A DNA stretch of 58,381 nt from Marinilabiliaceae bacterium (GTDB taxonomy: Bacteria; Bacteroidota; Bacteroidia; Bacteroidales; Marinilabiliaceae), in assembly GCA_021443545.1 (NCBI GenBank), contig JABUTU010000001.1, forward strand, positions 1 to 58,381, in the 5' to 3' direction. The notes below the pieces were generated by a model that ran no database searches, was not told the DNA's origin, and saw only the letters and a program-made list of their open reading frames with translations. Positions 715-31,355 of this stretch are shown piece after piece. Position numbers and translations under genes: made by a program. Numbering within the stretch: the first letter of the stretch is position 1; the number at the start of each line of letters is the position of its first letter.

Positions 715-2007
715 TTACACCAACTCTGCGAACAAATCATAATCGTCGGCTCCGACTATTTTCACATTTGTGAGAGTACCCACCTTAACTTTTTGTCCCT
801 CTTTAACATTTATAATAACCTCAGGGTCAACCTCAGGAGAGTCAAATTCTGACCTTGCGACATAATGGTCTCCCTCTCTTCTATCTACCATAATGGGAAT
901 AGTTGTACCTACCTTATTTTCATTTATTCCGCGTGAGATATCTGCTTGAATTCTCATTATATCCTCCGCGCGCATACTCTTAACCTCATCTGCCACATCA
1001 TCAATATAATTCTTATATGCATAGGTCTGTTCTTCATGCGAATAAGGGAAAACACCAAGACGCTCAAAACGATACTTAACAACGAAATCTTTGAGTTCTT
1101 CAAAATCCTCCTCTGTTTCGCCAGGATGTCCTGTGATAAGAGTAGTTCTCAAGTGAATACCAGGCACACTTGCACGTATTTCATCGAGCAGATTGAAAGT
1201 CTCTTGTTTAGTGATTCTACGACGCATCTTCACGAGCATATTATCACTAATATGTTGTAATGCTATATCTAAATAACGGCAGACTTTAGGGTTTGAAGCC
1301 ATAACAGGCAACAGATCTTTTGGGAACCCAGCAGGATAGGCATAATGCAGACGTATCCAATCGATACCATCGATATCAGACAATCGTTGTGTCAATTCTG
1401 CAAGTTTACCCGATTTATAGATATCCTCACCATACATTGATAAATCCTGAGCGATTACCTGCAACTCCCTTACGCCCTTATCACGCAACTTTTTAGCTTC
1501 GTCAAGGATATCTTCAATTGTTCGGCTCACATAACGACCTGTAATAATGGGTATTGCGCAATAGGAACAAAACCTGTTGCATCCCTCGCTAATTTTCAGA
1601 TACGCATAATGCTTGGGAGTCGTCAGACTTCTCTCCGTCAAGAGGTCTTTTCTCAGCCCTAAGCCAAGATCCGAAACGATATCCTTCCAATGAAATTTCC
1701 CATAGAACTTATCCACTTCTGGCAATGCCTCTCTTAAATCCTTAGCGTACCTTTCCGACAGGCAGCCCATGACAAGAAGTTTCTTAATCTTCCCCCTCTT
1801 TTTTGCATCAGCGAGTTGCAATATTGTATCAATAGACTCCTCCTTTGCATCGCCAATAAAGCCACAAGTATTGACAACTACCACATCACCACGCGGACGC
1901 ACAGGATCGTGATGTACCTCGATTCCAGAAGCTTGAAGCTGAGCCATGAGCGACTCAGAATCGACTAAATTTTTGGAACACCCGAGAGATATTATATCAA
2001 CCTTCAC
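715..2007 (-). CDS. rimO: Ribosomal protein S12 methylthiotransferase RimO
   Basis: RimO is a radical-SAM enzyme that adds a methylthio group to an aspartate of ribosomal protein S12. The 430-aa protein has the N-terminal MTTase domain with three cluster cysteines (C10 in LGCSKN, C48 in NTCGF, C82 in MGCLS). The radical-SAM motif follows (C143, C147, C150 in GCNRFCSYC), and then a C-terminal TRAM-like domain. Length and motif spacing are typical of the family. The gene starts six bases after ftsY and is transcribed with it; ftsY-rimO is a familiar Bacteroidetes pairing. No obvious intrinsic terminator follows; an AT-rich palindrome lies about 60 bases downstream. RimO is preferred over MiaB because of the MKVDIISLGCSKNLVDSE start. 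Confidence 0.95.
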   Translation of the reverse strand: MKVDIISLGCSKNLVDSESLMAQLQASGIEVHHDPVRPRGDVVVVNTCGFIGDAKEESIDTILQLADAKKRGKIKKLLVMGCLSERYAKDLREALPEVDKFYGKFHWKDIVSDLGLGLRKDLLTERSLTTPKHYAYLKISEGCNRFCSYCAIPIITGRYVSRTIEDILDEAKKLRDKGVRELQVIAQDLSMYGEDIYKSGKLAELTQRLSDIDGIDWIRLHYAYPAGFPKDLLPVMASNPKVCRYLDIALQHISDNMLVKMRRRITKQETFNLLDEIRASVPGIHLRTTLITGHPGETEEDFEELKDFVVKYRFERLGVFPYSHEEQTYAYKNYIDDVADEVKSMRAEDIMRIQADISRGINENKVGTTIPIMVDRREGDHYVARSEFDSPEVDPEVIINVKEGQKVKVGTLTNVKIVGADDYDLFAELV

Positions 2008-2013
2008 TATAGA

Positions 2014-2967
2014 TTAATGCTTAAACAGTGAATCCACAAACTCCTCCTTAGAGAATAGTTGCAAATCTTCAATTCCCTCACCTATACCAATGTACTTAAC
2101 AGGTATTGAAAACTGATCACTCACACCTATCACGACACCACCCTTTGCCGTACCGTCGAGTTTGGTTATAGCGAGAGCTGTCACTTGAGTAGCTTTAGTA
2201 AATTGTCGAGCCTGTTCGAAAGCATTTTGACCCGTTGAACCATCAAGGACAAGCAAGATTTCGTGTGGAGCAGATGGCACGACTTTCTGCATTACATTCT
2301 TTATCTTGGTCAACTCATTCATCAAATTGATTTTATTATGAAGACGACCAGCTGTATCAATTATGACAACATCAGCACCTTGAGCCTTAGCTGAAGAGAG
2401 AGTATCAAAAGCGACACTCGCGGGGTCGCTTCCCATCTGCTGCTTAACAATAGATACCCCGACACTGTCGGCCCAAACTGTGAGTTGCTCGATTGCTGCA
2501 GCCCTAAATGTATCAGCAGCACCAAGAACTACCCTCTTACCAGCTTTTTTAAACTGATATGCAAGCTTACCGATAGTTGTAGTCTTTCCTACACCATTAA
2601 CACCAACTACCATGATGACATATGGATCTTCACTCTTAGGCAACTCCCAATCATCAACATCAGTTTTATTATTCTCAGATAACAATTTTGCGATTTCTTC
2701 TCTGAGAATTGTATCCAGCTCATCAGTCGTGCCATAAGCATCACGCTTTACACGCTCCTGAATACGCTCAATAATTTTCAGGGTCGTATCAACACCAACA
2801 TCAGAAGTAATCAGGATCTCCTCCAGTTCGTCGAGAACAGAGTCATCCACCTTATGTTTAGCTGTCAGAATGCGACCAAGGCGCTGAAACAAACCTTGCT
2901 TCGTCTTCTCGAGTCCCTTATCAAGACTCTCTTTCTTTTCTCTGGTAAAGAGACCAAACAACCCCAT
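2014..2967 (-). CDS. ftsY: Signal recognition particle receptor FtsY
   Basis: FtsY is the SRP receptor GTPase that docks ribosome-nascent-chain complexes at the inner membrane. A short N-terminal charged segment is followed by the helical N domain and the NG GTPase domain: G1 GVNGVGKTTTIGKL, DTFRAAA, G3 DTAGR, G4 TKLDGTAKGG and the closing IGIGE…DL. I take the Met of MGLFGLFTREKKE (codon at 2965-2967) as the start because it matches the family; an in-frame ATG three codons upstream (2976) is possible. The protein is about 317 aa and lacks the long acidic A domain of E. coli FtsY, as is usual in Bacteroidetes. A promoter motif at 2994-3001 serves the ftsY-rimO unit. Confidence 0.95.
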   Translation of the reverse strand: MGLFGLFTREKKESLDKGLEKTKQGLFQRLGRILTAKHKVDDSVLDELEEILITSDVGVDTTLKIIERIQERVKRDAYGTTDELDTILREEIAKLLSENNKTDVDDWELPKSEDPYVIMVVGVNGVGKTTTIGKLAYQFKKAGKRVVLGAADTFRAAAIEQLTVWADSVGVSIVKQQMGSDPASVAFDTLSSAKAQGADVVIIDTAGRLHNKINLMNELTKIKNVMQKVVPSAPHEILLVLDGSTGQNAFEQARQFTKATQVTALAITKLDGTAKGGVVIGVSDQFSIPVKYIGIGEGIEDLQLFSKEEFVDSLFKH

Positions 2968-2993
2968 ATGCGTCATTAATGGTTAATACACTG

Positions 2994-3001
2994 CAAAATT
3001 A
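2994..3001 (-). promoter_or_regulatory. Promoter -7 element for ftsY-rimO
   Basis: TAATTTTG on the minus strand fits TAnnTTTG. It lies 27 bases before the chosen ftsY start. The -33 box is degenerate. Confidence 0.55.
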
Positions 3002-3109
3002 GTAATTATTGCTCAATTTATGAAAATGACATTCAAAATATTCGACGTGGCAACGCTATGACAACCACGCAAAAAATCGTTTTACTATTCCCTATTCATT
3101 AAAAAATAT

Positions 3110-3117
3110 TATCTTTG
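3110..3117 (+). promoter_or_regulatory. Promoter -7 element for gyrB
   Basis: TATCTTTG fits the Bacteroidetes TAnnTTTG consensus and lies 47 bases before the gyrB ATG. I see no clear TTTG at the -33 position. Confidence 0.6.
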
Positions 3118-3161
3118 CGTCGCATTTAGTTCGTTGTGAAACTGAAATGCAAAAAACTTAA

Positions 3162-5132
<1,971 letters not shown>

Positions 5133-5136
5133 TACG

Positions 5137-6240
5137 ATGTTGCACCTTAATCTGGATAAATATCTTATTGCATGTCCCTTGATTGCATGCACTGTATTAT
5201 CTTCTTGTAATCTTACAAAAGAAGAGACTCGTATTTATGCCAACGACCCTATGCTGATAACGATGGGCCGTACAATCTATACTGAGTGTGATAGTATTTT
5301 GAACTTCAATTTTCCAGGGAGTGCCATATATGCTAATTTCTCAGGAACAAAGGTTTCTATGCTGGCAAGACCAGGCTCTGGCTCTTTCATATACACATTG
5401 GACGGTCAAGAACCAAAGAGAGTCGAATTCGATGAAAACGTCAGAGAGATTATACTCGCTGATAGTCTTGAAGATAAGGAACATAGCATTGAGATAATGT
5501 ATATTATTGAAGGCTATGAGCACAACCCTGGTTTTGCCGGATTACGGTTATCACCAGGAGCAAAACTGACGAAGAAGCATCAGCTTCCCGATTTTAAGAT
5601 ACTTTATATAGGCAACTCTATAACATGTGGTTATGGCATTGAAAGTGACAATCCTAACGAGGGTTTTTCGTATGCTACTGAGAATCATTACTCCACATAC
5701 GCAGCCATTACCGCCCGTAATGTAAACGCCCAGTGGCACTCCATTTCGCGCTCAGGAATAGGAGTTTATCGCAATTATGGCGACAAGAGAGAGGGAAGCG
5801 AAGTGACAATGCCCATACAATTTGAAAGAACGCTTTTCGACAATCCTAATTACCAATGGAATCATTCTGACTATCAACCCGACTTGATATGCCTGAATCT
5901 CGGAACCAACGACACCAGCCTTGACAATTACGACGTAGACAAACTGCGTGATGCATATGTAAGTTTTGTTGGTACGCTTAGAGAAGAATATCCAAATTCA
6001 AAAATACTATTACTGACAGGGAGTATGATGAATGGGAAAGCACTTGACGATGCAAAAACATCGCTTGACTTCACATTGAACCATTATACCGAGAAAGGCG
6101 ATTCCTTGATATATCGGTTTGACTTCTCTCCTCAAGGTGGAGACTTAGGCTATGGAGCAGACTGGCATCCTTCTAAGGCTCAGCACGCCCGCATGGCTGA
6201 AGAACTAACTGAATATATAAAGACAACAGTTATCAATTAG
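5137..6240 (+). CDS. CE2-type acetyl (xylan) esterase lipoprotein
   Basis: This is a predicted secreted carbohydrate esterase of the SGNH type, resembling CE2 acetylxylan esterases that remove acetyl groups from plant polysaccharides. I use the ATG at 5137, which gives a lipoprotein signal with lipobox LSSC (lipidated C24); an upstream in-frame ATG at 5074 lies inside gyrB. An N-terminal beta-sandwich of about 120 residues precedes the catalytic part: block I GNSITCGYG with the nucleophile Ser, block III NLGTNDTS, and block V DWHPS with the catalytic Asp/His. That order and the sequence around GNSITCGYG are typical of CE2. It sits four bases after gyrB, an unexpected partner. Its substrate would fit the GH10 protein encoded at 54009-56003. 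Confidence 0.85.
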   Translation: MLHLNLDKYLIACPLIACTVLSSCNLTKEETRIYANDPMLITMGRTIYTECDSILNFNFPGSAIYANFSGTKVSMLARPGSGSFIYTLDGQEPKRVEFDENVREIILADSLEDKEHSIEIMYIIEGYEHNPGFAGLRLSPGAKLTKKHQLPDFKILYIGNSITCGYGIESDNPNEGFSYATENHYSTYAAITARNVNAQWHSISRSGIGVYRNYGDKREGSEVTMPIQFERTLFDNPNYQWNHSDYQPDLICLNLGTNDTSLDNYDVDKLRDAYVSFVGTLREEYPNSKILLLTGSMMNGKALDDAKTSLDFTLNHYTEKGDSLIYRFDFSPQGGDLGYGADWHPSKAQHARMAEELTEYIKTTVIN

Positions 6241-6276
6241 CTTATTTTTCCAAAGAATAGAGAAAAATCTTTAATA

Positions 6277-6978
6277 ATGGTTTATTTGATTCCGACATTT
6301 TTAGGAGACAATTCATCAGCTGAGAAAACGATGCCTACGTATAACATTTCTGTCATACGTGGGATTCGTTATTTTTTGGTTGAAGACATCCGCACGGCAC
6401 GTCGTCATCTGAAAAGAATGGATAATAATATAGATATCGACCAACTCGACATAAAGCAACTAAATAAAGAGACAAAGATTGAAGAGATAGCTGAGCTTCT
6501 ATCTCCAGCAAAAAAAGGCGAGGACATGGGGATAATGAGCGAAGCTGGTTGTCCCGGAATTGCCGACCCTGGCGCTTTAGCTGTTGAAGTGGCTCACAAA
6601 ATGGGCATACAAGTCGTTCCCCTTATTGGGCCCTCAAGTATACTCTTAGCGCTGATGGCATCGGGGATGAATGGCCAAAACTTTGCATTCATAGGATACC
6701 TTCCCGTAGAAAAAAATGAATTGGACAAATGTTTACGACGAATAGAAGAACGCTCTCTCAAAGAACACCAAACTCAACTATTCATCGAAACACCATACAG
6801 GAACGAACGATTGTTTTCAGACCTCATAAGAGTATTAAGGCCTCAGACTCGTCTCTGCATTGCTACCGATGTGGCCTGCGACACAGAGACTATCACAACA
6901 TTAACCATAAACGAATGGAAAGAAAGAGGTATTCCAGATTTCAAAAAAAGACCAACCATATTTCTTTTTACAGCATAA
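6277..6978 (+). CDS. RsmI-like SAM-dependent methyltransferase
   Basis: The protein belongs to the tetrapyrrole/corrin methylase fold family and resembles RsmI, which methylates the ribose of C1402 in 16S rRNA. The 233-aa chain has the SEAGCPGIADPGALAVEVAH segment and the GPSSILLALMASGMNGQNFAFIGYLP segment (shown here as two conserved blocks around residues 85-150). The start lacks the usual glycine-rich loop in canonical form (MVYLIPTFLGDNS). This shorter Bacteroidetes paralogue is often annotated only as a SAM-dependent methyltransferase, so the exact rRNA target is uncertain. It follows the esterase by 36 bases and precedes the macroglobulin gene by 31 bases, consistent with co-transcription. 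Confidence 0.8.
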   Translation: MVYLIPTFLGDNSSAEKTMPTYNISVIRGIRYFLVEDIRTARRHLKRMDNNIDIDQLDIKQLNKETKIEEIAELLSPAKKGEDMGIMSEAGCPGIADPGALAVEVAHKMGIQVVPLIGPSSILLALMASGMNGQNFAFIGYLPVEKNELDKCLRRIEERSLKEHQTQLFIETPYRNERLFSDLIRVLRPQTRLCIATDVACDTETITTLTINEWKERGIPDFKKRPTIFLFTA

Positions 6979-7009
6979 CTATTAATTAACTTACTAAAAA
7001 GCTATCATT

Positions 7010-10000
7010 ATGAGAAAATCATTATTGTCTATCTCATTCACATTTTCACTTCTACTATCTCTTCTGACAGGATGTGGCGACAATGTGGTTCAAGTAAATC
7101 CTCTCGTAGAGAGTTTTACGGATGGTTTCATATCACGAACGGGGTCAGTAGTTGTGACCCTTACTAAAGAAATGAGTCAGGAGACTCTAAACAAGCCTGC
7201 AGAAGACTACATTAGCATCTCCCCTGCAGTTGCATCAATGGAGGCAATATGGAGAGATTCGAAAACTCTTGTTTTGGCACAGAAGGGCAAACTCGGAATT
7301 GACGAGACCTACACAGTCAAAGTTAAGACGTCCAAACTCGATTCTGAGATTGATGACGACTTTGAATTCATGGTTAAGACACTTCCTTTAAGTATTAGCA
7401 AGCAATCAGAGTCGATGAGTGTCAATGATGATGGTTCATTCAATTTTGACATCGTATTGGTGACGCCCGACATTACTGAGGAGAACGAGATATGGAACAA
7501 TGTCAATATTTCTGCTGACATCAATAAGAGCCATAGCTCCGCTGATAATAAACGCACTCATACGTTATCTCTTAAAGATATAAAAGCAGGCACACCTGAC
7601 ATTACTATTTCGACCAAGAATGCTACAATATGCACATTGTCAGTTCCTAAGCATGACACATTTGAAGTCTTATCATACAAATATATCTCAGGAACAGAAA
7701 AATGTTTAGAGGTAACACTTACAAATAATCTTGATACAAAACAGAGTCTGAAAGGTCTTGTCAGTATTAAAGAGCAGTACGCCGGCAACGACGCTTCTGT
7801 TCGTATCGACATTTACGAAGGAAACAGACTTCGTATATACCCTACACTCAACAAACAAGGTCGACAATCTTTAAGTGTAATAATTGATAGCTCTCTGAAG
7901 AACAAGAAAGGCGAAAAGTTAGGTAAAGACTATAAATTCACAATAGATATCGACTCTGAGCTTCCGAACGTTGACTTCATAGGCAATGGTGTCATAGTGC
8001 CATTCACGGAGAGTGTTGTTGTTCCCTTTAAGGCTACAGGTGTCAGGGGTGTAGTTTGTGAGGTTCTCAAACTCTACGCCGACAATATGTCATTTTTCCT
8101 TGCAGACTACTCAATGAACGAGTCTTACGGCTTCAGTTCCGTAGCACGCCACATTGCATATAAAACTATCAATCTTGAACAACAAGGACGCGACTTAAGC
8201 ACTTGGAACACGTATGGCATAGATTTATCGGATTTGATTAAGGTAGAACCTGGTGCGCTCTACTCAATCCGAATGCATATTGTCCCTGAATTGTCGGAAT
8301 ATGAAATTGATGGCGTTCAGAAGATGAGCGTTACTGAATATTCTGCGAACGATGGTTTGCGTCTGCGTGAGTTACAAGAGAATGACGACAATGGTTGTTA
8401 CCTTAGCAGCATGAACTTTGGCTGGGCTTACTACGATGAAGAGAATGATGAGTGGTATCACTCATATGATTGTCAGGATGCATCCAAAAAGATATACTAT
8501 ACAGATCGCTATGCAACACGCAACGTCATAGCATCCAATATAGGTCTAACGTCATACACCAATGGAGAAGGCAAACTGATTGTTGTAGCTAATGACCTCA
8601 ACACTTCATCTCCAATGAAAGGCGTTGAGATTATAGGATACAACAAACAGCATCGTATCGTTGCGAAAGCCACGACTGATGGCAATGGAACAGCCAGTAT
8701 GGAGTCAACAGAAGGAGAAGGAAACATCCGAATAGTTGTTGCAAAATCTGGTGAAAGTGCTTCATATCTCAAAACCGACGACTACTCATCGCTTTCAACA
8801 AGTCTCTTCGAAGTTGATGGTGCAGTTGTTCAAAAAGGCATTAAAGGATTTATCTATGGCGAGCGTGGTGTCTGGCGACCAGGCGACACACTGCATATAG
8901 CATTTATGATGTCAGACATTGAGAAACGTCTTCCAGAGAACCATCCTGTAACCCTACATCTTCAGAATCCGAGTGGACAGACTGTATACGAAAAGACGGT
9001 ATCATCAAAAGATCGGCAGGGCTCAGCAGCGGGACTCTTCCTCTTTCACATACCAACCGACGTAGAAGCTCCAACAGGATTATGGGATGTCAACATAAAT
9101 GTTGGAGGCACATCATTCAGCAAGAATCTACGCATTGAAACGGTAAAACCAAACCGTCTGAAAATTGATTTCTCTCTTCCTTCGGTGATACACCTAAGCG
9201 ACAATAGAGATATCAACATTCACACTGAATGGCAGACTGGAGCCACATCAAGCAATTTGAAATATAGGGTCAGTGCTGACTATAAGGAGGTTAGCACAAA
9301 TTTCAACGATTATAAAGACTACACATTCGATGTAAAGGCTGGATCTGAGACAGACCAAGACAACACAATAGCTCAGGGCACAACAGACAACGATGGCGAT
9401 GCAGTCGTTATAATACCTATGCCATCAACCAATGGACAAAAGAGCGGTTCCATACGTGCGACATACACCACGACCGTGTATGAGCCATCAGGGGAGACAA
9501 GTATCGACGTTTCGCAGGCAACGCTCTTAAACTATAAGAGTTATGTTGGTGTTAAAGCTCCAAAGCCAGCAGACAACTACACTTATCTTGCGACAGGCAA
9601 AAAGCACACATTTAATGTCGTATCGCTTCTTGACAATGGAACAGTTGCGCCAAAAAAGAGAATCGAGATAAAAGTCTACAAGACTGAATGGTCATGGTGG
9701 TGGTATTCATCAGGCGACATTGCTCAATACGCTAACAATTCGTATCACACTCCTATCAGCAAGATGTACCTGAATACAGACGGAAGTGGGAAGGCAACTT
9801 TTGATTTGGAATTCTCTGACAATGAATGGGGTCGATATATCATCATTGCGACAGATGCAGAATCTCACCATCAATCAGCAATACAGGCGTATTTTGACTG
9901 GGAGTATCTGGGTGCTCCTCGCGATAGTAATGGAGGTTCTTCTGCAACAACTCTCTTTTTCAACACAAACAAGAAGAGCTACGAACCAGGAGATAACATT

Positions 10001-24028: not shown

Positions 24029-25807
24029 ATGAGTAATTTTGTAGAAGGCGTTGAAGGTTTCGACTGGGAAACGCTCGAAAGTGGTGTAACCACATCAGCA
24101 TCTCGTGAGCAGCTCACAGAGATGTACGACAAGACCCTCTCTGCTATAGCAGAAAACGAAGTAACAAAGGGTACTGTCATCTCAATCAACAAACGCGAGG
24201 TCGTTGTGAACGTAGGTTCAAAGTCTGACGGCATCGTTTCTCGTAGCGAATTCCGCTACAATCCAGACCTCAAAGTAGGTGACGAAGTAGAAGTTTACAT
24301 TGAAAATCGTGAGGACAAGAAGGGACAGCTCGTCCTCTCACACAAGAAGGCTCGCGCAATGCGTTCATGGGATTGTGTCAATGAAGCTCTCGAGAAAGAC
24401 GAAATCATCAAGGGTTATATCAAGTGTCGCACTAAGGGCGGTATGATTGTTGATGTATTCGGCATCGAGGCATTCCTCCCAGGTTCACAGATTGACGTTA
24501 AGCCTATCCGCGACTACGACATCTTTGTTGGCAAAACAATGGAATTCAAAATCGTTAAAATCAATAGCGAATTCCGCAATGTTGTCGTTTCTCATAAAGC
24601 TCTCATCGAGGCTGAACTCGAGCAACAGAAGAAGGATATCATATCTAAGCTCGAGAAGGGTCAGGTACTTGAAGGAACAGTTAAGAACATCACATCATAC
24701 GGAGTATTCGTTGACCTCGGTGGCGTAGATGGTCTTATCCATATCACAGACCTCTCATGGGGCCGTGTTTCTCACCCAGAAGAGATTGTACAACTCGACC
24801 AGAAGATCAATGTTGTTATACTTGACTTTGATGACGAGAAGAAGCGTATAGCACTCGGTCTCAAGCAGCTTACTCCTCATCCTTGGGATGCTCTCAGCCA
24901 GGAACTTAAGGTTGGCGACAAGGTTTCAGGAAAGGTTGTTGTAATGGCTGATTACGGAGCATTCGTTGAAATCGCTCCAGGCGTTGAGGGTCTCATCCAT
25001 GTCTCTGAGATGTCATGGTCACAGCACCTCCGTTCAGCTCAGGATTTCCTCAAAGTAGGCGAAGAGATTGAGGCACAGGTTCTTACACTCGACCGCGAGG
25101 AGCGTAAGATGTCACTCGGCATTAAGCAACTCCATCAGGATCCTTGGGCCGACATCGATGTACGCTACCCAGTTGGTTCTAAGCACAGCGCTACAGTTCG
25201 TAACTTTACAAACTTCGGCGTATTTGCTGAGATTGAAGAGGGCGTAGATGGTCTTATCCACATATCAGACCTATCATGGACTAAGAAGATTAAGCATCCA
25301 AATGAGTTCACTTCAATAGGCAACAAGATTGATGTTGTAGTACTCGAAATCGACAAGGAGCAGCGTCGTCTCAGCCTCGGACACAAGCAACTCGAGGAGA
25401 ACCCATGGGATGTATTCGAGACAATCTTCACAGTTGATTCTGTTCACGAGGGCACAATCACTGCAATCATCGATAAGGGCGCTATCATAGCTCTCCCATA
25501 TGGTGTTGAAGGTTTCGCTACTCCTCGCCACCTCACAAAGGAGGATGGCTCACAGGCTAAGGTTGACGAGAAGCTCGCATTCAAGGTTATTGAGTTCAAC
25601 AAGGGCGCTAAGCGTATCATCTTATCTCACTCTCGTACATTCGAGGAGGAGAAGAAGAGCGAAGCAACAGAGCGCAAGCCTAAAGCAAAAGAGACAAAGA
25701 AAAGCGTTAAGAAGGTTAACGACAACCGCGAAGCTACAACACTCGGTGACATCACTGAGCTCGCAGCACTCAAGAGCCAACTCGAGGCTAATGAGAAGGG
25801 TGAATAA
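24029..25807 (+). CDS. rpsA: 30S ribosomal protein S1
   Basis: S1 recruits mRNA to the 30S subunit. The 592-aa protein contains about six S1 (OB-fold) repeats. The well-formed middle ones show GVFVDLGGVDGLIHITDLSW, GAFVEIAPGVEGLIHVSEMSW and GVFAEIEEGVDGLIHISDLSW, each followed by a (K/R)(K/R)xxLGxKQL-type segment. The first two repeats are degenerate, as usual for ribosome-binding repeats, and the C-terminus is a Lys/Glu-rich tail. Codon use is strongly biased (CTC, CGT, AAG), unlike its neighbours, as expected of a highly expressed gene. It is closed by a strong terminator. Confidence 0.95.
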   Translation: MSNFVEGVEGFDWETLESGVTTSASREQLTEMYDKTLSAIAENEVTKGTVISINKREVVVNVGSKSDGIVSRSEFRYNPDLKVGDEVEVYIENREDKKGQLVLSHKKARAMRSWDCVNEALEKDEIIKGYIKCRTKGGMIVDVFGIEAFLPGSQIDVKPIRDYDIFVGKTMEFKIVKINSEFRNVVVSHKALIEAELEQQKKDIISKLEKGQVLEGTVKNITSYGVFVDLGGVDGLIHITDLSWGRVSHPEEIVQLDQKINVVILDFDDEKKRIALGLKQLTPHPWDALSQELKVGDKVSGKVVVMADYGAFVEIAPGVEGLIHVSEMSWSQHLRSAQDFLKVGEEIEAQVLTLDREERKMSLGIKQLHQDPWADIDVRYPVGSKHSATVRNFTNFGVFAEIEEGVDGLIHISDLSWTKKIKHPNEFTSIGNKIDVVVLEIDKEQRRLSLGHKQLEENPWDVFETIFTVDSVHEGTITAIIDKGAIIALPYGVEGFATPRHLTKEDGSQAKVDEKLAFKVIEFNKGAKRIILSHSRTFEEEKKSEATERKPKAKETKKSVKKVNDNREATTLGDITELAALKSQLEANEKGE

Positions 25808-26373: not shown

Positions 26374-27456
26374 ATGGATGATATACTATACATATTTTCA
26401 AAACGTCTCAGACAGGCTCGAAAAAGAGCAAAGTTGTCGATGGATGAACTATGCGGCATTATGGAACCTTCTGTAAGCAAGCAGACCATTTCAAAGTACG
26501 AGGCAGGCAAGTGCATGCCGAATGGGCTTTTAATGATTGCTCTTGCTAAGGCTCTTAATGTAGAAATAGAGTATTTTGCACGGCCTTTTGACTTTGACAT
26601 TAACGAATTGAGCATCTCTTTCCGAAAAAAAGCTTCTGTTTCTACAAAGGATTTAGATGCATTGAAAGTTGATATTCAGGATGATATAGAAAGATATTTA
26701 GAGCTTGAAACTTTGTTAGGCAACAAATCAGCAAAACTAGAACCTCTGACAAAGTCGGTTTTGAAAACGAGCGACGATATGAGGCGTATGGCCAAACTTC
26801 TTCGCGACAAATGGCAATTGGGAAACAATCCTATTCTAAATGTTAAAGAACTATTTGAAAGCAAGGGCGTTGTTGTGATAAATACAAAAGGACCAGATGG
26901 CTTCGATGGTGTAAGTGGAATGATAAATAAAGGGAATGATATATTTCCTGTAGTCGTTATCAATCCTACGATTGATATTTGCGAACGCAAACGTCTTACG
27001 ATGTTTCATGAATTAGCCCATCTGCTATTCAATGATCTGTTTGACAGAGATTTGTTGCCTAAAGAGAAAGAAAAACTTTGTAATTCGTTCGCAAATGAAA
27101 TGTTATTACCCGAAAATGTAGCCAGGAATGGTTTTAAAGGAAAACGGCAAATACATTTGCCAGAATTAATTTATTTTCAGCAATCATATGGAATCTCATT
27201 AGAAGCCATAGTTTACAAACTTCATGAGTTGGGGTTGATAAATGATGTAAGGTTTAGGACATTCCAATTTCTCAAGAATACAAAGCCGTTTATGAAAAAG
27301 GCAGTCTCCACTTCTATGTTCAACGAGTCAGATACGATGCGTTTTGAGGCAATGGTGTACAAGGCAATTGCAGAAGGACTAATCTCGCAAGAACGTGCGG
27401 CTGTTCTTTTAAAGCAGCCCTTAACAGATGTTCAATATAATATGGAGACAATTTAA
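26374..27456 (+). CDS. XRE-family regulator with ImmA/IrrE metallopeptidase domain
   Basis: The 360-aa protein has an N-terminal helix-turn-helix of the XRE type (RLRQARKRAKLSMDELCGIM … VSKQTISKYEAGKCMP, about residues 10-60). An ImmA/IrrE peptidase domain (COG2856) carries the zinc motif HELAH at residues 212-216. Proteins with this layout act as antitoxins, mobile-element repressors or stress-triggered regulators whose cleavage derepresses a partner. Its stop codon overlaps the start of the next gene by one base, the coupling usual in toxin-antitoxin pairs. A palindrome and a strong promoter precede it. What triggers the peptidase, and its substrate, cannot be read from the sequence. Confidence 0.88.
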   Translation: MDDILYIFSKRLRQARKRAKLSMDELCGIMEPSVSKQTISKYEAGKCMPNGLLMIALAKALNVEIEYFARPFDFDINELSISFRKKASVSTKDLDALKVDIQDDIERYLELETLLGNKSAKLEPLTKSVLKTSDDMRRMAKLLRDKWQLGNNPILNVKELFESKGVVVINTKGPDGFDGVSGMINKGNDIFPVVVINPTIDICERKRLTMFHELAHLLFNDLFDRDLLPKEKEKLCNSFANEMLLPENVARNGFKGKRQIHLPELIYFQQSYGISLEAIVYKLHELGLINDVRFRTFQFLKNTKPFMKKAVSTSMFNESDTMRFEAMVYKAIAEGLISQERAAVLLKQPLTDVQYNMETI

Positions 27457-27881
27457 TGGGGAAGGATGTAATTGTAAGTGATGTGAGAACATTGAACAAA
27501 TTGCTTAATCCTGAAGTATTATCTTCAATCCAAAATCTTGATTTGGAGATGATAGTACTTGATTGGCTGAAACTGAATTCTGTACAACAATCTTTGTGCA
27601 TAAAACATGGAATTTGCTCGGTAACTTTAACCGAGAAGGAAGTAATAGAAACTTTTCAAGTATATCAGCAAGATGCCAATCATAGTGTGTGTATTGAACA
27701 ATACGGAGCGCTGGTATATGCAATTCGTCATGATGCATTTTTTGCATCGTTTAACCCACTTATCCAAAAATTAGGAGAAAAATTTGGGATAGCACAATAT
27801 TGGCTTATAGATGGGAAAGATTGTCTATTGCCAATATATACAGTTAACGGATTAATTAATTCAAATTATATCGCCGTATGA
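27456..27881 (+). CDS. Small PIN-like protein, probable toxin partner
   Basis: The 141-aa protein overlaps the XRE/ImmA gene by one base. It begins MGKDVIVSDVRTLNKLL, with an early Asp after a beta-strand as in PIN ribonucleases. It ends with a strand-helix-strand segment (FNPLIQKLGEKFGIAQYWLIDG) resembling the last part of the PIN fold. The acidic residues expected in the middle are not cleanly placed, so the fold assignment is tentative. Gene order (antitoxin-like regulator first, small partner second) and overlap favour a toxin-antitoxin role. There is no signal peptide or membrane segment. A hairpin follows about 26 bases downstream. Confidence 0.55.
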   Translation: MGKDVIVSDVRTLNKLLNPEVLSSIQNLDLEMIVLDWLKLNSVQQSLCIKHGICSVTLTEKEVIETFQVYQQDANHSVCIEQYGALVYAIRHDAFFASFNPLIQKLGEKFGIAQYWLIDGKDCLLPIYTVNGLINSNYIAV

Positions 27882-28066: not shown

Positions 28067-28074
28067 TAAATTTG
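28067..28074 (+). promoter_or_regulatory. Downstream candidate promoter for the DUF4417 cassette
   Basis: A second TAAATTTG, 21 bases before the ATG at 28096, overlaps the in-frame TTG at 28072 and so argues against that start. Confidence 0.45.
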
Positions 28075-28095: not shown

Positions 28096-28824
28096 ATGAA
28101 AGATTTATTCGGTAATATTTGTTCGCAAGAACTATTAGTTAGTTTCCATCGGAAACGATGGAAACAGAGACAATCGCACTACCGTGCACACATTGCTTCT
28201 TTTTGTTACCCAGAAATTACGCGTGATATTGAGAAGATTGGCCCTTATGACATGCCTATCATCAAACCAAACTACGTAATACCATCCGTAACGGACACGA
28301 CACCTTTTGATAGAATTGGTTCAAAGTCGTCAAATAGAGAATCGATCGTCATTTTCTATATCAACGACAATAGATTTGCAACAGCGTTGTCTCACCCATG
28401 GACATACACTGGTAGGTTGTTGCAATACAATTCTGTAATAGCTCCAGACTTGTCGCAATACAGAGATATGGATTATTCTGAGCGAATGTCTCATAATTAC
28501 TGGAATAAGGTATTTACTGCGTACTGGCAGAATCGGGGCGTTAATATCTATCCTAACGTAACTTGGAGTTTGCCAGATAGCTTTGAGTATAGTGCATATG
28601 GCTATCCTCGAAAATCTGTGATTGCTATTAATAGCATGGGTGTGCTTAATAGTAATTTCAGCACATCAATCTGGTTGGAAGGATATAGCTACATGCTAAC
28701 TGCTTTGGAACCTATATGCATCTTGCGATATGGTCCGAAGGTATGTGGAGAAGACGAGAGCATCAGTATTTACTTAGACAACAAACAGATAGAGATTTTA
28801 AGACATGGGAGCAAACGGAAGTAA
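28096..28824 (+). CDS. DUF4417-family protein
   Basis: The protein is 242 aa from ATG 28096 (MKDLFGNICSQELLVSF). The core matches DUF4417 as I recall it: IVIFYINDNRFATALSHPW (about residue 90), APDLSQYRDM, AYWQNRGVNIYPNVTWSLP (about residue 150), and RKSVIAINSMGVL. The function of the family is unknown; members are found in phages and mobile elements, mainly in Firmicutes, and are scarcer in Bacteroidetes. The 3' end overlaps the next gene by 20 bases. There is no signal peptide. Codon use looks less biased and more AT-rich than in the neighbouring conserved genes, consistent with transfer. Confidence 0.75.
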   Translation: MKDLFGNICSQELLVSFHRKRWKQRQSHYRAHIASFCYPEITRDIEKIGPYDMPIIKPNYVIPSVTDTTPFDRIGSKSSNRESIVIFYINDNRFATALSHPWTYTGRLLQYNSVIAPDLSQYRDMDYSERMSHNYWNKVFTAYWQNRGVNIYPNVTWSLPDSFEYSAYGYPRKSVIAINSMGVLNSNFSTSIWLEGYSYMLTALEPICILRYGPKVCGEDESISIYLDNKQIEILRHGSKRK

Positions 28825-29248
28825 AGCAAGTGGGCAATTGGAAGATGCATCCAAACGTCAGTATCATACAGAACATGATATTTCTGACAATATCAAGGTC
28901 ATTGAGGCAAATCAAAAGAATGCCATGGTCAAATTGCCAGAAGAGTGTCATACTCCCAATCGCATCTACGTAGCTATAAATAAACCTGCTACAGAAGGCA
29001 AGTGGAAAAATGATCCATATGCAGGAAAATTAAAGTCCATTGCAGTTTATGGAAGTGACTGCAAAAAGTTGTATGAGATTCACGTTGATCATACTCACAA
29101 TGGGTTAAGTTTTCACTATCATCCGTGGGAAAATGGACATCCCGTTAAAGCTGGAACAGGAAAGAATTCCCCCAATGTAGCCTATGAGCTAACATCAGAT
29201 ATGAAAAAATTGTTAGAAATAGTAAAAAAGGAGGTGCCTCATGTGTAA
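28805..29248 (+). CDS. His-rich MGxxGS protein paired with DUF4417
   Basis: The 147-aa protein opens MGANGSKASGQLEDASKRQY, a low-complexity start like the MGGRGS family encoded beside DUF4417 genes in phages. A middle part reads RIYVAINKPATEGKW…GKLKSIAVYG, followed by a dense His segment (H93, H96, H98, H104, H106, H112, around YEIHVDHTHNG and HYHPWENGHP). That could be a metal-binding or nuclease-like site. The resemblance is from memory of the family pattern, and no function is established. It overlaps its upstream neighbour by 20 bases and its downstream one by 8, so the three are probably made together. Confidence 0.6.
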   Translation: MGANGSKASGQLEDASKRQYHTEHDISDNIKVIEANQKNAMVKLPEECHTPNRIYVAINKPATEGKWKNDPYAGKLKSIAVYGSDCKKLYEIHVDHTHNGLSFHYHPWENGHPVKAGTGKNSPNVAYELTSDMKKLLEIVKKEVPHV

Positions 29249-29603
29249 AGAGACAGAACCAAGAGCTGATTTTATTGGCTACGATTTGTTCGGTTACGAA
29301 TATAATTGTAAGTTTCCACCCAACGTTGAACGTTATGGAAATGAATATCGTGGATATGCCACAGAGAATCAAATGGCATTGTTCTATGATTTCTGTATAC
29401 TCCAATATGGCATTGCTTTCTATTATGAGAATGTTGCATACGAAGCAGAGTTCTCTGACAACGGACCTATTCTAAAAAACTTAGATACTGGCATTGTTCA
29501 GGGACCATTTGACGATGCCATAAAACTGATAGAAGAGTCCAATGTTGGGGATTGCAAACTGATAAACGTCCTTGATAGCTTGGAGAATATCATTTTGCAT
29601 TAA
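29241..29603 (+). CDS. Small acidic protein, third member of the DUF4417 cassette
   Basis: The 120-aa protein overlaps the His-rich gene by eight bases. It is acidic and aromatic (FIGYDLFGYEYNCKFPPNVE, GIAFYYENVAYEAEF) and ends PFDDAIKLIEESNVGDCKL…. Size, acidity and position after a candidate effector resemble immunity proteins of toxin modules, and the C-terminal 'DDAIKLIEE…G.KL' pattern resembles small proteins downstream of MGGRGS genes in phages (recollection, unverified). No membrane segment or signal is present. Confidence 0.55.
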   Translation: MCKETEPRADFIGYDLFGYEYNCKFPPNVERYGNEYRGYATENQMALFYDFCILQYGIAFYYENVAYEAEFSDNGPILKNLDTGIVQGPFDDAIKLIEESNVGDCKLINVLDSLENIILH

Positions 29604-29956: not shown

Positions 29957-29993
29957 AAAATCTTTGCAAGCAGAATGCTTGCAAAGATTTTTT
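29957..29993. terminator. Strong bidirectional terminator
   Basis: A perfect 16-bp stem (AAAATCTTTGCAAGCA / TGCTTGCAAAGATTTT) with a three-base GAA loop ends in TTTTTT. It can end both the accessory region and the minus-strand glycosyltransferase operon. The 108 bases from here to 30101 hold nothing else I recognise. Confidence 0.9.
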
Positions 29994-30101: not shown

Positions 30102-31355
30102 TCAAATCATATTATGAAACAGCTGCTCGAACTGAGTCGCCTGGTACTGGCGAGTGAACGACCTGATATAATCTAAGCGACTTTTGGCATTAGGTAGCAC
30201 GCAAGAATTTTCCGTCCAAGTCTTAAGCGACCACGAAAGATAATCTTTGAGTGGCTGAACATCGTCAAAGCAGACTCCAGCACCAGCCTCATCCAGAATC
30301 TCCCCTATGACGCCTCCTGAACAAGGCAAACAAATAATAGGACGCTGAGTCGCCATATACTCAAAGAATTTGGTTGTCAATACACCTTTTAATTTCCTAT
30401 TATCAGCCAAAAGAAGCAGTATGTTACTCTCTGGGAGAATCCTCGACACCTCAAGAGCTGATACCCATGGATGTAATTCAACACACTCTTGCAATCCATA
30501 TTTTGCAACGAGAGGCAATACCATGTCACGGCTTTTAGCATCTGTATAGAAAAGCACTCTAATCTTTCCAAGAACATCTATGCCCTCTGAAATCATTACC
30601 CTCAGAGTTTTAAATAAGAGTTCTGGATTTCGAGCCTCTATGCTACCCGTTGGGGTAGAGATAGTACCTGTGAATGATATTGTCAGATGCGTTGTTGGCA
30701 CTGGTTCTGTAGGGCGGAACATCGTAGAATCATAGCCGTTATATATCAACAATGTGTTAGGATTAAATGGTCTTAACATATCAACATTCCATTTAGAAAC
30801 TGTCGTAACAGCTCTTGCCTTCGAAAGAATTAGGTTTCTAACTGGAATCTGTGCCTTTCTCAACCTCCCTGATATACCATTCATAGGCCAAAACGAAGGT
30901 GCTTGCTCATATATATCGCGAATATCCACGAATATAGGAAGGCCTGTCTCCTCAGCAACCCTTGAAGCTGCCATTAAGGGGAAGAAGTTTGAAGTAGAGA
31001 CTAAGATACAGTCGAAACTATTATTTTTAACCTCATCGATAGCAAGTCGATACGCTCTATCGTCAGACATTGTCCATAACTTTCGACCCGACACGACATA
31101 GCCAAATAAATTGCTAAGCAATACTCCTAAACGTTTCCATGAGGGTAGAAAGACTTTAACATCTTTTACAGTTGTTGCATAACCTTCGAGATGTCCGAAA
31201 GAATTCATATCCCGATGATGCAACGAAGCGACTACCGTGACCGTATGTCCCTTCATCGCTAAATTCTTAGTCAGAAATCCCATACGTGGTGCAAACGACG
31301 GAGGAAAATGATCTGCAATCAGCAAAATACTAAGGTGAGATAATATGCTACTCAT
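30102..31355 (-). CDS. GT4-type glycosyltransferase
   Basis: This 417-aa protein has the GT-B layout of family 4. The N-terminal half contains LLIADHFPPSFAPRMGFLTKNL with the Pro/Ala-rich donor-cleft loop, and the C-terminal half has ISFTGTISTPTG, LFYTDAKSRD, and TTKFFEYMATQRPIICLP (the donor-binding EYMAxxxPII motif). No membrane segment is evident. The acceptor is unknown; polysaccharide or glycolipid synthesis is likely, and the GDP-fucose synthase two genes upstream in the same run fits that. It is the last gene of the nine-gene minus-strand run and starts 23 bases after the HD gene ends. Confidence 0.85.
   Translation of the reverse strand: MSSILSHLSILLIADHFPPSFAPRMGFLTKNLAMKGHTVTVVASLHHRDMNSFGHLEGYATTVKDVKVFLPSWKRLGVLLSNLFGYVVSGRKLWTMSDDRAYRLAIDEVKNNSFDCILVSTSNFFPLMAASRVAEETGLPIFVDIRDIYEQAPSFWPMNGISGRLRKAQIPVRNLILSKARAVTTVSKWNVDMLRPFNPNTLLIYNGYDSTMFRPTEPVPTTHLTISFTGTISTPTGSIEARNPELLFKTLRVMISEGIDVLGKIRVLFYTDAKSRDMVLPLVAKYGLQECVELHPWVSALEVSRILPESNILLLLADNRKLKGVLTTKFFEYMATQRPIICLPCSGGVIGEILDEAGAGVCFDDVQPLKDYLSWSLKTWTENSCVLPNAKSRLDYIRSFTRQYQATQFEQLFHNMI

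Follow-up and report, generated by a model that had tools for sequence, protein, structure and literature searches.

Temperate phages encode MuF polymorphic toxins, and of all described kinds of system these come closest to the locus which we present here. According to PMC5576092 they have a constant N-terminal part and exchangeable toxin domains, their genes are located near terminase and portal genes, and a small open reading frame (ORF) follows downstream; Bxa of Bacteroides is described as a MuF toxin with the immunity proteins Bsi and BAH (PMC11699363). The toxin domain Ntox24 (PF15529) is presented by Zhang et al. (2012, PMC3482391) as all-beta, with conserved Y, H and H, as part of both toxin-antitoxin and MuF settings, and as a conceivable RNase without need of a metal; elsewhere in the same paper it is given a single conserved histidine. 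In RosmerTA, ImmA-type proteins act as antitoxins and different toxins (RmrTs) are reported; the same source mentions that, on a conjugative element of Bacillus, ImmA cleaves a helix-turn-helix (HTH) repressor (PMC10440598). The locus we have studied belongs to a Marinilabiliaceae bacterium of the Bacteroidales. The window, that is the whole stretch of DNA analysed, corresponds to positions 1–58,381 of contig JABUTU010000001.1 (assembly GCA_021443545.1). It contains a trio of overlapping genes on the forward strand (28096–29603), which in our view is a mobile, phage-related effector-immunity cassette; we give this reading a probability of about 0.6.

The first gene of the trio (28096–28824) codes for a protein which matches DUF4417 (PF14386) with E 2.3e-37 and 128.7 bits, for a gathering score of 28.9. 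The second (28805–29248) codes for a basic putative effector of 147 amino acids (aa), which starts with the Gly-rich leader MGANGSKASG (28805–28834) and has six histidines between residues 93 and 113; similar leaders are found on many phage proteins encoded after DUF4417. The third (29241–29603) codes for a putative immunity or antitoxin protein of 120 aa with an isoelectric point (pI) of 4.2. Genes 1 and 2 overlap by 20 bases, genes 2 and 3 by 8 bases. These features had been pointed out in the initial annotation of this DNA, and all of them stand: the DUF4417 match, the overlaps, the MGxxGS leader with six clustered histidines and the small, acidic third protein. An alternative in-frame TTG start of gene 1 is found at position 28072; the ATG at 28096 is likelier, because the TTG falls within the promoter-like box TAAATTTG. 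Between the window and L063, its nearest relative, saturation at synonymous sites prevents any estimate of the ratio of nonsynonymous to synonymous substitution rates (dN/dS). Four closer Bacteroidales pairs have dN/dS values of 0.06–0.16 in gene 2, and the two informative pairs for gene 3 have 0.06 and 0.10, values which indicate purifying selection on both genes in close pairs.

Scans seeded with gene 2 gave 41 viral and 42 genome loci, which include 26 Bacteroidales loci (L063–L088) besides the window. The gene 2 relatives were divided into four classes, assigned by locus number after the leaders, the taxa and some of the third genes were known. Class A (27 rows) contains the window and Bacteroidales with an MGxNGS leader; class B has an MGGRGAF leader (five rows counted and a sixth locus, L017); class C (11 rows) has an MGSRGAF leader and is found mostly in Bacillota and in one planctomycete metagenome-assembled genome; class D (32 rows) has an MGGRGASSG leader and comes mostly from phages. 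Rows are taken as distinct when they differ in the first 60 residues, and many of the viral loci are related to each other.

The trio is a real unit, beyond chance, since the same gene order recurs in other genomes of Bacteroidales and Bacillota, and its first two genes recur in the same order in phages. A DUF4417 ORF is present in 40 of the 41 viral and in 35 of the 42 genome loci, and lies within 700 bp of gene 2 in 65 of 76 distinct rows. In the other Bacteroidales loci it is found in 21 of 26 cases (shortened in L070 and L081); the full trio in order is found in 20 of them, including the two with a shortened DUF4417, and L069 ends before gene 3. Ten of the 11 class C loci have DUF4417, and ten have DUF4417, gene 2 and an acidic gene in this order. 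The gene 3 family of the window follows gene 2 in 25 of the 27 class A rows (24 detected by script, L076 by reading of the frames); the two exceptions are L069, where the contig ends after another 42 bases, and L064, which has a broken gene 2. A different acidic gene is located downstream in 5/5 class B and 11/11 class C rows; L017 has none there, and an ORF sits between its DUF4417 and gene 2. Thus the homologues of the three genes are neighbours, a point on which the initial annotation had made its module idea depend, and the recurrent neighbourhood favours its idea of an effector with a small acidic immunity protein behind DUF4417, with class D as the exception. In the phage collection gene 2 relatives appear in 13 records, 12 of them Streptococcus phages; A25, SA01, Javan377 and Javan258 have the order DUF4417, gene 2, terminase genes. 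An unannotated record of the same collection (L009) has an HTH gene, an ImmA-like gene, DUF4417, gene 2 and a small gene.

The cassette is rare. We searched 295 genomes of the order Bacteroidales and found gene 2 in three of them, DUF4417 in four (three over the cut-off) and gene 3 in three, one copy being weak and with stops. The genome of the window has three loci with gene 2 and DUF4417, in contigs C11 (the window), C59 and C24, each behind an HTH gene with an M78 peptidase domain. It also has a fourth DUF4417 gene (L018, 4043–5143, in contig C58) of 366 aa, near a contig end, with an N-terminal extension that is ParB-like by eye. An integrase-like ORF is found by eye beside the second cassette of this genome (L016, 7608–8834) and a recombinase-like ORF beside the Bacillota cassette L101 (near 6850–8480), neighbours pointing to mobile elements. 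Locus L105, a class B locus from genome G189 of the same order, is a phage-like region with two DUF4417 genes and two different MGGRGAF leader proteins (1885–3241 and 6148–8345); by eye, an ORF similar to ADP-ribosyltransferases, with no Pfam hit, directly precedes a terminase-like gene.

Gene 2 codes for a basic protein (median pI 9.5 in the family) which matches phrog_9479 with E 1.4e-10. Its residues T50, Y55, H104 and H106 are invariant in 58/58 aligned members, window included, and H98 is present in 91%. The AlphaFold2 model (predicted local distance difference test, pLDDT, 86.1; predicted template modelling score, pTM, 0.81) is mostly beta, with six strands and a C-terminal helix. Weak matches with Ntox24 are found in 8 of 59 members (best E 3.7e-4), the window protein having none; the predicted fold and the invariant Y55, H104 and H106 fit the Ntox24 traits. 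Gene 2 is therefore Ntox24-like, short of family membership. The suggestion of a metal-dependent effector is not supported: there is no metal evidence, and a metal-independent RNase has been proposed for Ntox24, the nearest described toxin domain.

The acidic character of gene 3 is maintained throughout its family: 24 aligned members, window included, have pI values of 4.1–4.8, the median pI given for gene 3 is 4.4, and the third genes of classes A, B and C have pI 4.2–4.8. No match was found in Pfam, PHROGs and PADLOC scans, and no known immunity family was recognised. Profile alignment with hhalign joins the third genes of class A with those of class B (93%) and class C (87%) over about 75 columns, and B with C weakly (28%); they probably form a single, fast-diverging superfamily. 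Of the 153 pairs given by 18 class A loci, 141 show lower conservation in gene 3 than in gene 2, and the divergences of the two genes correlate (Spearman 0.73), a correlation which shared descent yields as well. Gene 3 thus appears to diverge faster than gene 2, yet together with it, as immunity proteins do. A double-length gene 3 of about 230 aa is found in L071, L074, L078, L079 and L085. In L071 (5261–7067) genes 2 and 3 are tandemly repeated, in L078 (6001–7807) a double-length gene 3 is repeated after a single gene 2, and L107 (4432–4791) contains an orphan relative of gene 3, in a genome where searches for gene 2 and DUF4417 found nothing. Double-length, repeated and orphan copies look like what is expected for immunity genes.

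A wider pattern appears in phages. In order to avoid the bias of the gene 2 search, two DUF4417 proteins were used as the only seeds on viral contigs, which gave 80 + 80 loci; a third scan of viral contigs, seeded with the DUF4417 protein of the window, found no relative. The ORF right after DUF4417 has at least four glycines in its first 20 residues in 78 of 118 cases, versus 45 of 632 control ORFs, which follow other genes in the same loci; the Fisher p value (1e-43) overstates the number of independent events, since many viral loci are kin. For a domain scan we selected the 86 of these 118 ORFs which are 90 aa or longer and have at least 3 glycines. At most 28 of these leader proteins match Pfam toxin or enzyme families: ADPrib_exo_Tox in 10 (best E 9.7e-29), CdiA_C in four, the papain-type Gln_amidase in three (5.2e-18), ART in three, M90 peptidase in two and MPTase-PolyVal, Peptidase_Mx1 and ART-PolyVal in one each. 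Among PHROGs, the ADP-ribosyltransferases phrog_3895, phrog_802 and phrog_16625 are matched by five, three and two members. Individual phages give examples: in WideWale gp2 is DUF4417 and is followed by gp3, annotated as a VIP2-like toxin, which starts with MGGRGGKGGPG; gp2 of Superchunk has the same start and gp72 of Lumos starts with MGRGRSPSGTG. In Soups an annotated ADP-ribosyltransferase toxin, gp2, comes right after DUF4417; as annotated it has no Gly-rich leader. Since a recurrent start is joined to exchangeable domains after DUF4417, we consider the leader a real signature: to judge from these sequences, DUF4417 marks an effector slot in phages, with a recurrent Gly-rich start and an exchangeable C-terminal part. 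A search for MGGRG in open-access full texts gave no title concerning phage proteins.

The AlphaFold2 model of the DUF4417 protein (pLDDT 88.2, pTM 0.83) and its structure matches predict an alpha/beta barrel, whose fold resembles tRNA-guanine transglycosylase (TGT) and DpdA. These enzymes have two catalytic aspartates at the mouth of the barrel; in DUF4417, D91 and D118 are conserved in 50/50 members. The domain occurs in 473 of 50,697 phage records, 369 of them mycobacteriophages, and most of the 25 matches listed carry the label hypothetical protein, nuclease or DNA modification methylase. Among the streptococcal phages, A25 has the annotation DUF4417 for this protein, and SA01, Javan377 and Javan258 have "DNA modification methylase". 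By profile all of them are DUF4417, and the methylase label of the streptococcal proteins (L007, L008 and L010) is probably wrong or inherited. In Mycobacterium phage Lumos (L304, 1323–4131) a DUF4417 gene, annotated as nuclease, is found within a tRNA cluster which includes tRNA-His(GTG) and tRNA-Asn(GTT), a setting that would suit a TGT-like enzyme. In the open-access literature searched, three papers name DUF4417, and the sections of them available to us do not describe the present arrangement; subscription papers were mostly outside this search.

Upstream of the trio there are two genes which were absent from the initial annotation. The longest (26374–27456, forward strand) codes for an HTH protein with an ImmA/IrrE (M78) protease domain: it matches HTH_3 (1.1e-10) and Peptidase_M78 (5.9e-9) in Pfam and RmrA in PADLOC (6.8e-38), and contains the motif HELAH. 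Equivalents are found upstream at some other copies, and it is probably the control gene of the cassette. It overlaps by one base a gene of 141 aa (27456–27881, forward strand), possibly a degenerate PIN-like partner. The latter is similar to the gene found at the same position in L019 (pairwise E 3e-6) and matches PIN proteins at the same position weakly with hhalign: 58% in a pool with three other genes, 10.7% together with L019 alone. It has no match in PADLOC. An HTH-M78 gene precedes the trio in the window and in six more class A loci, as well as in four of the six class B loci. Seven of the 11 class C loci have, before DUF4417, an HTH gene together with one of about 180 aa: M78 is above the Pfam cut-off in L094, L101 (= L051) and L103 and below it in L093, L097 and L100, and the protein of L009 is related to that of L103. 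Since ImmA cleaves an HTH repressor and ImmA-type proteins act as antitoxins, analogy suggests that the cassette could be induced through ImmA upon infection or damage.

The trio has promoter candidates of its own, as had been noted: a TAnnTTTG box, which we take to be the Bacteroidetes -7 promoter motif, occurs in the 150 nt before DUF4417 in 10 of 20 Bacteroidales loci, the window among the 20, versus 8.7% of random stretches. In the window it is TAAATTTG (28067–28074, forward strand), a possible promoter of the trio; this enrichment suggests that separate transcription of the trio is also possible. The description of the locus as lying between gene remnants has support downstream only, where partial copies are found at several sites of the genome; the upstream gap has no second copy in the genome. 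Between 29862 and 30041 there are stretches 67–77% similar to a few other places of the genome; inside them a hairpin with a T-run (29957–29991), resembling a terminator, matches both strands at more sites. This region is a recurrent terminator-like repeat, perhaps with the end of a decayed gene. The flanking genes code for an S1-domain protein (24029–25807) and a glycosyltransferase-like protein (30102–31355). The functional unit may reach further upstream than the trio.

We can now describe how the cassette might work. Gene 2 would be a small toxin, built from the Gly-rich leader and an Ntox24-like domain, most likely an RNase that uses the conserved tyrosine and the pair of histidines. The acidic product of gene 3 would neutralise it, and the overlapping frames would ensure that both are made together. 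DUF4417, the usual partner of the leader, may bind or modify tRNA or DNA, because its predicted fold resembles TGT and DpdA, or it may serve leader proteins in general. The upstream HTH-ImmA gene probably represses the operon and would release its expression when infection or DNA damage is sensed. The role could be either phage defence or competition.

Several results weigh against this proposal. In class D a strongly acidic third gene is found in only 3 of 32 rows (L091, L035 and L102; pI 4.1–4.4), perhaps because phages produce the effector only late in infection. DUF4417 is absent or shortened in L070, L071, L079, L081, L085, L088 (where gene 2 is interrupted) and L095, all of which keep genes 2 and 3, so that it is probably accessory to this pair and dispensable for it. 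In the 295 genomes only five of the nine places with DUF4417 have a gene 2 relative beside it: the gene at G189:C7:95208 is followed by another MGGRGAF protein, and other proteins, of which one matches CdiA_C weakly (E 0.01), follow those of G189:C39 and G303. An HTH-ImmA gene was detected in no more than 7 of the 27 class A loci, L065 having it on the opposite strand. With E up to 1, Pfam gives no match for the gene 2 protein of the window; none of the solved folds clearly matches its model, and the members shown with Ntox24 matches reach 14.9 and 16.9 bits, for a cut-off of 24. With TGT (PF01702), DUF4417 has an hhalign probability of 0.35%; TGT is not among the 15 Pfam families listed for 50 DUF4417 members (E up to 10, with filters which drop most weak matches), and the 50 aligned members have no conserved aspartate near the last strand. 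At least 58 of the 86 leader proteins are without any Pfam match, and as many as 12 may fall in virion or head families of PHROGs: head maturation protease in six, virion structural protein in three, head morphogenesis in two and minor head protein in one.

Some of these results suit other explanations. The HTH-ImmA gene and its 141-aa partner could be a complete RosmerTA-like toxin-antitoxin pair, the trio being an independent passenger. The match with RmrA and the one-base overlap with the partner agree with it, as do the promoter-like box of the trio, the variation of the partner gene between loci (PIN-like in L063 and L080) and the 20 class A loci where HTH-ImmA was not found, although four of the 27 have less than 2.6 kb upstream. 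We consider it unlikely: in 7 of 11 class C loci the HTH and ImmA-like genes precede DUF4417 by at most a few hundred bases, with no separate toxin gene in between, and HTH-M78 genes recur in class B. Alternatively, genes 1 and 2 could be late accessories of phages, loaded in the head and injected with the DNA to aid infection, and the chromosomal copies would be prophage relics. The location of the pair directly before the terminase genes in streptococcal phages, the head and virion families just listed, the phage-like nature of L105 and the delivery with the virion assumed for MuF toxins in PMC5576092 all fit such a role. By eye, however, most of the Bacteroidales and Bacillota copies listed have no head or packaging genes beside them, although an integrase is found near L016 and a recombinase near L101; these copies retain the acidic third gene which most class D copies lack, and close pairs are under purifying selection. 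Such an origin seems quite unlikely to us.

A modification-restriction system similar to Dpd is very improbable. Here DUF4417 would modify a base of its own DNA or tRNA, gene 2 would attack unmodified nucleic acid and gene 3 would tune gene 2. The predicted TGT/DpdA-like fold invites this comparison, as do the tRNA genes for His-GTG and Asn-GTT around DUF4417 in Lumos and the fusions of ParB with DUF4417 reported in phages in the sources available to us, which recall DpdA and its ParB-like partner DpdB. Nevertheless ADP-ribosyltransferases, deamidases and peptidases, enzymes that would not respond to a base mark, occupy the slot after DUF4417 as well; genes 2 and 3 are kept in loci without DUF4417, and DUF4417, with D91 and D118 conserved, has neither a sequence link to TGT nor a conserved aspartate near its last strand. 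The effector-immunity cassette is the reading which we prefer. A bolder version of it is doubtful: DUF4417 would be a third base-exchanging branch beside TGT and DpdA, working together with a constant leader and swappable toxins in a phage "modifier-effector-immunity" system at injection or packaging. Gut bacteria would have taken this system over as a defence module under the control of ImmA, and the leader would serve DUF4417 or the virion as a recognition signal for any toxin attached to it.

The association of DUF4417 with a recurrent leader and exchangeable enzyme domains offers a testable role for a gene pair that common phages of the laboratory carry; in gut Bacteroidales and Bacillota, the trio on the chromosome is a new candidate module for immunity or competition. 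Were DUF4417 indeed a base-exchange enzyme, nucleic-acid modification would be joined to toxin delivery.

When the cassette is compared with known systems, its likeness to MuF toxins, as the sources cited present them, lies in a constant N-terminus with swappable domains (ADP-ribosyltransferase, deamidase, nuclease, metallopeptidase), in the placement of genes near terminase and portal genes and in a small immunity ORF downstream. It differs by its short Gly-rich leader, by its usual DUF4417 partner, by a chromosomal form which seems to be partly under ImmA control and, by eye, by the absence of phage head genes near most chromosomal cassettes; no MuF domain was found by Pfam in the 147 aa of gene 2 at E up to 1. 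Some overlap of leader proteins with MuF-type proteins is possible, as 3 of the 86 match head morphogenesis or minor head PHROGs. With Ntox24, known from toxin-antitoxin pairs and MuF toxins according to PMC3482391, gene 2 shares the all-beta character, the tyrosine and two histidines; it differs in its weak family profile match, and its neighbour gene 3 has no recognised immunity family. RosmerTA (RmrA-RmrT) and this locus both have an HTH and ImmA (M78) gene which overlaps a small partner gene; the sections of its description available to us (PMC10440598) do not mention a trio of DUF4417, effector and acidic protein. DUF4417 differs from TGT and DpdA in having no detectable sequence similarity with them, and enzyme domains similar to those of the leader proteins are described in the polyvalent proteins of phages (PMC5512222). 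A constant N-terminus with exchangeable domains, which characterises polymorphic toxin-immunity systems, is found here in the leader enrichment, the Pfam families and the phages named above; a co-varying small gene directly downstream is found by position in classes A, B and C, with co-divergence in class A. From its sequence the trio looks like a member of this kind, in a previously undescribed variant.

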